The translations under genes and the position numbers were made by a program. The notes under the pieces were generated by a model that saw nothing but the letters and a program-made list of their open reading frames with translations, ran no database searches and had not been told where the DNA came from. Of a stretch of 64,000 bases of DNA, positions 9,391-11,124 are shown piece after piece (position 1 is the first letter of the stretch; the number at the start of each line of letters is the position of its first letter). This DNA is from Bacteroidetes bacterium OLB10 (GTDB taxonomy: Bacteria > Bacteroidota > Bacteroidia > AKYH767-A > OLB10), in NCBI GenBank assembly GCA_001567275.1, contig LNBX01000008.1, forward strand, positions 1 to 64,000, read 5' to 3'.

Positions 9391-10261
9391 CCGCAGGAAG
9401 ATATTGTTCATACTGAATCCTAAAGCCGGACATGGCAAAGCAGGAAATATTGTGAGGGAGGCAGAGCGTTTATTGGATCAGTCGAAATTTGAAATACATT
9501 TTTCTGAAACGGAGTATGCAGGTCATGCCAAATTGCTTGCTAAAAAAGCTGCTGACGAACATGATGATTATGTTGCCTGCGTTGGAGGAGATGGTACTGT
9601 TAATGAAGTAGCCTCCTCTCTGAAAGATACAGAAACTACATTACTGATTATTCCGGCAGGTTCAGGAAACGGGCTTGCACGTCATCTGCAAATTCCAATG
9701 AATGCTGCAAGTGCCATTGCACTTTTGAATAAGGGAAAAACTGTAAGTATTGACACTTTCAGTATCAACAATCTGTTCACCATCAATGTAGCAGGCGTGG
9801 GCTTTGATGCGCTGGTAGCTCACCGTTTTGCTGAAAAGAAAAAACGTGGACTTAAAACCTATATCAAAACGATCCTTGCAGAATATTCAGCTTCTAAAGA
9901 GTTTGAAGCAGAAATAAACGGAACTGTTTATAAGGCCTGGCTCATTTCCATAGCCAACTCCGGGCAGTTTGGCAACAATGCATGGATTGCACCTGTAGCA
10001 TCGTGTACAGACGGTATGCTCGATATTATTGTTTGCAAAAAACAAAAAGGTGTGAAACTGTTGACATTTGCAGTCAACCTTTTTTCAAAAAGACTGTCAT
10101 CGGCAGATTATACTGCTTTGCGTAGCAACCAAATGACCATTAAGCTTTTTTCCAAGCAACCACTTCATCTGGATGGAGAACCTGCTGGTTTCACTGATGA
10201 GCTGAATATTTATTGTAAGCCTTTATCACTAAAAGTAATTGTTCCGCAACATGTCGAATAA
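9380..10261 (+). CDS. Diacylglycerol/lipid kinase family protein (YegS/DgkB-like)
   Basis: 293 residues, full length for the family. N-terminal ILNPKAGHGKA nucleotide-binding motif, the hallmark GGDGT at 69-73 followed by VNEVASSL, then PAGSGNGLARHL, and a C-terminal LHLDGEP motif. It phosphorylates diacylglycerol or a related lipid with ATP at the cytoplasmic membrane. Its ATG lies inside the last codons of the LTA-synthase-like gene (11-base overlap), so translation is likely coupled. The pairing fits recycling of diacylglycerol left after head-group transfer, as known for DgkB in Gram-positive bacteria. That role here is inference. Confidence 0.92.
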   Translation: MLNSRRKILFILNPKAGHGKAGNIVREAERLLDQSKFEIHFSETEYAGHAKLLAKKAADEHDDYVACVGGDGTVNEVASSLKDTETTLLIIPAGSGNGLARHLQIPMNAASAIALLNKGKTVSIDTFSINNLFTINVAGVGFDALVAHRFAEKKKRGLKTYIKTILAEYSASKEFEAEINGTVYKAWLISIANSGQFGNNAWIAPVASCTDGMLDIIVCKKQKGVKLLTFAVNLFSKRLSSADYTALRSNQMTIKLFSKQPLHLDGEPAGFTDELNIYCKPLSLKVIVPQHVE

Positions 10262-10592
10262 AAATAAAAACCGCTCCGGAATTGTTTATTCCACCAATCC
10301 TGATTTCAAACCACAGCAGGAAGAAACTCAACAGGAAACATTACCTCCTTCACAACAGGATTTGCGTGTATTACGCGATTCCAAACAACGCGGAGGAAAA
10401 ACGGTGACGCTCATTCGCGGATTTGTTGGCAGTGAAGATGATTTGGAAAAACTAACCAAACTTTTGAAAACAAAATGCGGAACAGGAGGAAGTACGAAGG
10501 ATGGCGAGATAATTATTCAGGGCGATAAGCGCGAACAGGTGATGGAAATACTCCTGAAAGAAGGATACAGAGCAAAAAAAGCAGGAGGCTGA
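10251..10592 (+). CDS. SUI1/eIF1-like translation factor (YciH family)
   Basis: 113 residues from the ATG at 10251. A disordered Lys/Gln-rich N-terminal third is followed by the SUI1 fold: VTLIRGFVGSEDDLEKL, CGTGGSTKDGEIIIQGD and VMEILLKEGYRAKKAG. Bacterial YciH proteins bind the small ribosomal subunit and affect start-site selection in vitro. Their role in cells is little known. The start overlaps the lipid kinase stop by 11 bases, in the same pattern (ATGTCGAATAA) as the previous junction. An ATG 12 bases upstream in the same frame is possible. A terminator follows. Confidence 0.9.
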   Translation: MSNKNKNRSGIVYSTNPDFKPQQEETQQETLPPSQQDLRVLRDSKQRGGKTVTLIRGFVGSEDDLEKLTKLLKTKCGTGGSTKDGEIIIQGDKREQVMEILLKEGYRAKKAGG

Positions 10593-10597
10593 AAAAG

Positions 10598-10630
10598 AAA
10601 AAACCGCCTTGTATAAGACGGTTTCTTTTC
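10598..10630 (+). terminator. Bidirectional terminator between the SUI1 gene and tRNA-Cys
   Basis: AAACCG (10601-10606) pairs with CGGTTT (10619-10624), with CTT/AAG inside. T-rich on the right and a longer T run on the opposite strand, so it also ends the tRNA transcript. Confidence 0.75.
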
Positions 10631-10636
10631 TGTTTG

Positions 10637-10707
10637 AGGTCGAGAGTAGATTCGAACTACTGTAGAAAGTCTTGCGGACTTTTGCCTCTTCTCTCGGCCA
10701 CTCGACC
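10637..10707 (-). tRNA. tRNA-Cys (GCA) with atypical D loop and C33
   Basis: 71 bases folding as a class I tRNA: acceptor stem GGTCGAG/CTCGACC (7 bp), D stem GCC/GGC, anticodon stem AAAGT/ACTTT (5 bp) with loop CCGCAAG, a four-base variable region, T stem AGTAG/CTACT with loop TTCGAAT, and discriminator U73. Anticodon GCA and U73 both point to cysteine. CCA is not encoded. Two things are odd: position 33 is C instead of the near-universal U, and the D loop lacks the G18-G19 pair that normally docks with the T loop. All stems are intact, so it is folded, but it might be a divergent or non-decoding copy. Confidence 0.8.
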
Positions 10708-10827
10708 TTATTTTGTTGTTTGGTTTAACGAGAACAAATTAAAATAGTTTCATTTGATTGACAAAATCATATTTGGCGAATGGCATTTTACTGAGGGTGA
10801 AAGTTTTCAACAAAAAAATCTTTGTTG

Positions 10828-11124
10828 TTAACTTCTCAGAAAGCCGGGAAGAATATCATTTGATACAGCAGCCATTTCTGATTGCATTAGTTTTTCTGAC
10901 GATTCCAAAGCTCTGTTCACAGCTACTGTAAGTAATTCTTCAATCTCTTCGCGTTGACCTATTTTAAATAACGAATCATTGATGTGAATGGATTTGATTC
11001 TATTGGTTCCGGTGGCTTCCACTACAATTTTTCCGCCTTCCGATTCGCCTGTCACGGTAATATTGTCCAGACGTTTCCTGATTTCTTCCATCTTTTTCTG
11101 TGCTTCTGCAAATTTTCCGAACAT
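10828..11124 (-). CDS. ybaB: YbaB/EbfC family nucleoid-associated protein
   Basis: 98 residues, typical length about 100-110. N-terminal helix FGKFAEAQKKMEEIRKRL, then the beta region VTGESEGGKIVVEATGTNRIKSIHIND and a C-terminal helix ending ILPGFL. YbaB proteins form dimers that bind DNA and coat the nucleoid. The gene is often near dnaX or recR in other phyla, but here it stands alone between tRNA-Cys and a divergent DUF922 gene. Start from the conserved MFGKF. The upstream box TATCTTCG is a seven-of-eight promoter match. Confidence 0.92.
   Translation of the reverse strand: MFGKFAEAQKKMEEIRKRLDNITVTGESEGGKIVVEATGTNRIKSIHINDSLFKIGQREEIEELLTVAVNRALESSEKLMQSEMAAVSNDILPGFLRS

Follow-up and report, generated by a model that had tools for sequence, protein, structure and literature searches.

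A rare C33 variant of tRNA-Cys that recurs in Bacteroidota and may be set aside from translation

Within the window, a stretch of 64,000 nucleotides from Bacteroidetes bacterium OLB10 (contig LNBX01000008.1), a variant tRNA-Cys gene was found that may be a dedicated, expressed paralogue, charged by the single CysRS of the cell and kept off EF-Tu and the ribosome, a reading of the sequence to which we give a little less than an even chance. More tentatively, it could belong to a recurrent Bacteroidota class of non-proteinogenic Cys-tRNA, recognised by C33, G38 and a 51-63 pair that has lost its guanine, that feeds a novel non-ribosomal reaction or a cysteine sensor. Few amino acids are known to have a tRNA withheld from translation, the best known case being glycine in staphylococcal cell walls, and to our knowledge a cysteine tRNA withheld in this way would be the first of its kind; no description of a C33 tRNA-Cys class was found in the literature searched, a search whose scope mostly lay outside subscription journals. 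The variant offers a handle for finding an unknown Cys-tRNA-consuming reaction in named isolates, such as those of Solitalea, Mucilaginibacter and Niastella. Moreover, a gene that looks unfit for decoding may, with its intact cloverleaf and right anticodon, receive an ordinary tRNA annotation, so that tRNA gene counts may overstate decoding capacity.

The variant gene, tRNA-Cys(GCA), lies on the minus strand at 10637..10707 and spans 71 nt including U73, the CCA end not being encoded (ARAGORN, cmscan). ARAGORN reports it as the single tRNA of the window (tRNA-Cys(gca), 10636-10707, minus strand), and it scores 47.7 bits against the Rfam tRNA model over 10637-10707 (gathering threshold 29); the gene was missed in a whole-window Rfam scan run with fast filters, and it is absent from the RF00005 list of its own genome, for which 150 of 190 candidates were scored. 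The cloverleaf is intact, with pairing stems, a 7/5 fold and a 4-nt variable loop, and the initial annotation, which had described a tRNA-Cys with GCA, U73, C33 and stems that pair, is borne out by ARAGORN, the Rfam score and the fold. The discriminator U73 (10637, minus strand), placed by sequence and alignment, is a CysRS determinant according to portions of PMC9976931. The anticodon loop (10671..10677, minus strand), read from sequence, fold and alignment, is C32 C33 G34 C35 A36 A37 G38, with C33 at 10676, the anticodon at 10675-10673 and G38 at 10671, and in the lowest-energy fold C32 and G38 are paired, which gives a 6-bp anticodon stem and a 5-nt loop. Alignment with the canonical tRNA-Cys of the same genome places G at the G18 position (10691) and A at the G19 position (10690) of the D loop GAGAGAAGA (10687..10695, minus strand); the GG pair, earlier described as lacking, is broken but not wholly missing. 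In the T arm (10645..10661, minus strand), pair 51-63 is U51-A63 (10659, 10647) and the canonical gene has C51-G63; this change and G38 are additional to what had been observed before. The features of a canonical translating tRNA-Cys are accordingly divided, GCA and U73 being present and U33 and G18-G19 being lost, and the earlier view that decoding is impaired agrees with these changes in features that decoding needs. Among 33 distinct tRNAs (31 loci) of the genome, U33 is found in 32 and the variant is the sole C33, in a tally where 9 of the 39 RF00005 rows lacked a separate locus and entered only when inside the stretch of a neighbouring locus.

Signals expected of an independent gene surround the variant. 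A putative -7 element, TTAATTTG (10735..10742, minus strand), lies 27 nt upstream of the tRNA and is similar in four genomes of the genus, and a putative -33 element, TTTTG (10762..10766, minus strand), lies 19 nt from it and is identical in the same four; we take the two to fit the -33/-7 promoter of Bacteroidota. Directly downstream there is an intrinsic terminator (10598..10627, minus strand), between the variant and a convergent gene of the SUI1 family (10254..10592, plus strand; Pfam PF01253, E 4.8e-20). The upstream neighbour is of the YbaB/EbfC family (10828..11124, minus strand; Pfam PF02575, E 6.4e-21), and neither neighbour gives any hint of a special use for the tRNA. Since the gene ends in a terminator ahead of a convergent gene, a cis-acting leader role is ruled out at this locus. 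A terminator was likewise found within 90 nt downstream in 18 of the 28 variant genes tested, with 1.8 expected from shuffled sequence, in a set that included the A33 member and was drawn from outside the Solitalea and Mariniradius arrays, g6, the Actinobacteria and the Porphyromonadaceae. No common gene neighbourhood emerged, the most widely shared neighbour, folB-like by eye and beside tandem tRNA-Cys genes, being present at only 5 of 32 loci.

The canonical tRNA-Cys of the same genome is located on another contig (G000:C35:20208-20279), with loop CTGCAAA, GG and U73, and the variant is 81% identical to it. Three further genomes of the genus carry the variant, at 100, 99 and 94% identity, with an unchanged anticodon arm; the occurrence of the same C33 and G38 in these three assemblies excludes sequencing error, in line with the earlier argument against an indel. 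In one of them, G002, the upstream gene differs (25-47% identity in aligned windows) and identity on the downstream side is 53-80%; despite these diverged flanks, similarity is retained in the tRNA and in an upstream block (28-60 nt away) that contains TTTTG and a TTAATTTG-like element. The initial annotation had proposed either a degenerate second copy or a tRNA with a use other than translation. A second copy it is, and a canonical partner would make it dispensable, as expected of a pseudogene decaying after duplication; the D loop also varies within the genus, and G57 is A in G002. Decay is nevertheless very unlikely, the least probable of the readings weighed here, given 94-100% conservation across the four genus genomes, intact stems, a terminator, a promoter-like block and the recurrence of the same changes elsewhere, a pattern that does not resemble the absence of purifying selection. 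The use other than translation, although we infer it, is the better supported half of the earlier proposal.

In the window's family (24 genomes), seven genomes have two tRNA-Cys genes, the second copy always with C33 and G38, twelve have one, always with loop CTGCAAA, and in the other five none was found; in two other genera of the family, g6 and g9, the variant lies near the canonical copy on the same contig. Pattern matches in a 395-genome sample of the class were confined to this family, apart from one match in G185 that was judged by eye to be due to chance and was dropped. A scan of one genome per species over 84,980 species used a pattern that fixed G23-C25, C32, C33, GCA, A37, three variable-loop bases and most of the T loop, and that left free position 38, the D loop, pair 51-63 and most stem bases. 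It returned 33 stretches, 31 of which are tRNA-Cys genes with C33; the stems of the remaining two (L097 and L099) do not pair, and these are chance matches. Bacteroidota titles stand on 27 of the 31, with carriers that include Adhaeribacter, Terrimonas, Maribacter, Pedobacter, Solitalea, Mariniradius, Robiginitalea, Mucilaginibacter, Niastella and Lutimonas, the remaining four belonging to Embleya (two), Actinomadura (one) and a WWE3 bacterium (one). The variant is therefore rare and scattered. Viral contigs held no exact match to the C33 pattern, which disfavours a phage origin.

To define the changes that accompany C33, variants were set against the canonical copy from the same genome in 19 clades, one representative being taken per clade, with G38 members preferred; the set comprised 33 variants, the copies of G421 and G425 (RYN_302, RYN_314) and the A33 member L161 standing outside it. 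Position 33 is changed in 19 of 19 clades because the set was chosen for C33. Position 38, in contrast, was free in the search, and G38 is nonetheless found in 24 of the 33 distinct variants and in 13-14 of the 19 clades, against none of 22 canonical genes, all canonical genes compared having A38; in a wider variant set, 30 of 39 C33 rows have G38. The guanine of pair 51-63, present in all canonical genes compared, is lost in 13 of 19 clades, mostly by a C-G to U-A change that keeps the pairing, whereas guanine loss amounts to 41/269 at all other stem pairs and 3/53 at the other T-stem pairs. This loss is associated with G38, the 51-63 guanine being absent from 12 of 13 clade representatives with G38 versus 1 of 6 with A38 (Fisher p 0.003, a guide only, as p-values are overstated for clades not shown to be independent). 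U73 is kept in 28 of the 33 distinct variants and is replaced by A73 or G73 in Adhaeribacter, Terrimonas and part of the Chitinophagaceae. The package is not uniform across the class: C51-G63 is kept in some members (g9, Adhaeribacter, Pedobacter, Porphyromonadaceae), and the C33/A38 members with unchanged 51-63 (Embleya, Actinomadura, Pedobacter, Porphyromonadaceae) may be something else.

Taken as a whole, the package appears to keep what charging needs and to alter what delivery and decoding need. The one base-specific contact of EF-Tu is said, after Sanderson and Uhlenbeck 2007, to be the guanine of pair 51-63. MiaA needs A36-A37-A38, and G38 would also block the usual modification of A37. 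By the accounts in parts of the cited sources, GCA and U73 are major CysRS determinants, as demonstrated in E. coli and yeast (PMC9976931), EF-Tu reads pairs of the T stem, 49-65 and 51-63 among them (PMC4052509, PMC9976931), and U33 lends stability to the turn by which the anticodon is positioned (PMC11415595). The variant would thus be charged with cysteine by the ordinary CysRS, GCA and U73 being kept; it would bind EF-Tu less well because the 51-63 guanine is gone; and it would be poorly accepted by the ribosome since the U-turn would be impaired by C33 and the loop narrowed by C32-G38, with the broken D-loop GG presumably weakening the elbow as well in the window's genus. The predicted outcome is a distinct Cys-tRNA pool that serves an acceptor other than the ribosome, or else a means of sensing cysteine supply.

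The closest parallel is found in the non-proteinogenic tRNA-Gly of Staphylococcus aureus, used for peptidoglycan bridges, which are likewise extra isoacceptors beside a normal one, with 51-63 changed to an A-U type and G18-G19 changed (portions of PMC4052509 and PMC9976931); three such tRNA-Gly have both 49-65 and 51-63 changed and G18-G19 replaced, as told in part of PMC4052509. This likeness, together with the charging features kept and the delivery and decoding features altered, argues for a Cys-tRNA set aside from translation. The variant differs from the staphylococcal tRNAs in that the amino acid is cysteine, U33 and A38 are changed too, pair 49-65 is A-U in both tRNA-Cys paralogues of the window's genome, and no FemAB-type partner tracks the variant.

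The main rival to this reading, which we consider possible but doubtful, is a slow or conditional decoder, in which the variant would read UGU/UGC, with C32-G38 partly compensating for C33, and would tune cysteine decoding or serve under stress. The retention of GCA and U73 is consistent with this, as are natural mistranslating tRNAs with A33 or G33, where G33 curtails rather than abolishes decoding (in the part of PMC11415595 that treats them). The copies found within carriers bear on the matter in both directions. The 30 carrier genomes were searched with a covariance model of tRNA-Cys and the sequences then compared, and a canonical U33, U73 tRNA-Cys was found in 27, the three exceptions being metagenome assemblies; this speaks against a decoding role, and with it fails the case raised earlier of a lineage whose only tRNA-Cys has C33. 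Of the exceptions, Adhaeribacter RYN_302 yielded neither a canonical tRNA-Cys nor cysS, Mucilaginibacter RYN_316 yielded no canonical copy, and Sphingobacteriales RYN_314 (G425; L135, L151-L155) has six C33 tRNA-Cys at separate places, whose T stems are mismatched at 50-64 and 51-63, and yielded no canonical copy either. This six-copy state favours the slow decoder and, if real, would mean that C33 copies translate. Against it, three separate features of decoding and delivery change together, and the G19 position is also lost in the window's genus.

A second CysRS as the partner of a set-aside tRNA was rejected, one cysS being found in each Bacteroidota carrier examined, RYN_302 excepted; the window's genome has one PF01406 match (cysS). 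Candidate users of Cys-tRNA fared no better. PF04738 (lanthipeptide dehydratase/PEARL) is found in 6 of 30 carriers and in none of 18 genomes of the window's family, and does not track the variant, nor does cyclodipeptide synthase (CDPS, PF16715), found in 2 of 30 carriers. FemAB-like genes (PF02388) are present in 7/7 carriers and 10/12 non-carriers of the family and in 0/15 other carriers, so that a FemAB-like user may still exist within the window's family. As a separate observation, the FemAB-like stretches G000:C48:95462-95962 and G001:C13:122143-122640 of two genomes of the genus lie within a 748-aa open frame, possibly a fusion, the FemAB-like frames of other family genomes being 335-445 aa long.

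Anticodon nucleases offer a further explanation, in which the variant is a spare or decoy tRNA-Cys that escapes or soaks up such an enzyme. VapC4 of Mycobacterium tuberculosis cuts tRNA-Cys, the changes here surround the anticodon loop and are found repeatedly in scattered lineages, and tandem variants are found in Solitalea agri (five), S. longa (three) and Mariniradius (four, plus two cut by contig ends), the five copies of S. agri being what a decoy might look like. PIN/VapC genes are present in 8 of 15 carriers outside the window's family, but within the family they occur in none of 7 carriers and in 4 of 12 non-carriers. Since the viral contigs also lack an exact pattern match and the 51-63 change, far from the loop, is left unexplained, we regard a decoy as improbable.

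Only slightly less improbable is a non-charged regulatory or structural tRNA-like RNA, comparable to tRNA-Other of Bacillus cereus. The latter, a pseudo-tRNA, is also a retained tRNA-like gene, without a function in translation, and is poorly charged and proposed to be part of a larger regulatory RNA (parts of PMC3399842), whereas the variant of the window keeps the CysRS determinants and has its own terminator. The A73 and G73 members from Adhaeribacter, Terrimonas and Chitinophagaceae would suit a non-charged RNA, and so would three Adhaeribacter copies (L166, L165, L142), C33 tRNA-Cys-like genes with a degenerate acceptor end. Each of these copies is followed after 74-76 nt by an AhpC/TSA-type gene (assigned by Pfam for one of them), no terminator was found in the intervening sequence, and the three could be tRNA-like leaders. 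It is the U73 of the window's member and of most distinct variants that weighs against such an RNA, as does GCA, kept as well, though the search pattern required it for most.

Two other systems resemble the set-aside tRNA-Cys proposed here in part. As described in portions of PMC7609411, selC* tRNA-Cys is a second tRNA-Cys with U73 and anticodon GCA or UCA, has a tRNA-Sec-like 8/4 fold, and in some groups is accompanied by a second SelB and CysRS*; the variant, in contrast, has a 7/5 fold, no long variable arm, and one cysS. The mistranslating tRNA-ProX, as presented in part of PMC11415595, is also an extra bacterial tRNA with U33 replaced, but it has A33 and combines Pro identity with other anticodons, while in the variant both identity elements and anticodon are those of cysteine.

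The package is likely to have arisen more than once. A tree built without the anticodon loop (64 columns, with little resolution) needs 14 changes of C33, at least four of them forced by well supported branches, and the order of the copies differs between lineages, the canonical gene being first in Maribacter and Robiginitalea and the variant first in g6 and g9; both disfavour a single ancient origin. Even with a single origin, the retention of the package while other positions changed would point to selection. C33 is not a consequence of duplication alone, as seen in a control in which an open tRNA-Cys pattern was run on 247 class genomes and rows from 70 genomes were picked by eye: among the matches listed, U33 is retained in both copies in 5 of 9 two-copy genomes. 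The 79 tRNA-Cys among these listed matches comprise 73 with loop CTGCAAA, two with CTGCAAC and four with CCGCAAG, all four of the last in g1 and g6. The class-sample genomes G172 and G062 have loop CTGCAAC, with C38, so that position 38 is not always A with U33.

Some further paralogues were noted in the carriers. In Mucilaginibacter, L158 and L160 contain at 1001-1071 another tRNA-Cys paralogue with a normal U33 and an A1/G72 mismatch, which begins about 12 nt after an AhpC/TSA-type gene ends (Pfam assignment made for the L160 copy). L145, L146, L161 and L167 (Niastella, Chitinophagales, Terrimonas) form a paralogue group of their own, in which the acceptor is A/CGTTACG, the discriminator is A or G, and position 33 is C or A; a downstream ATGGCAA stretch is common to L145, L161 and L167.
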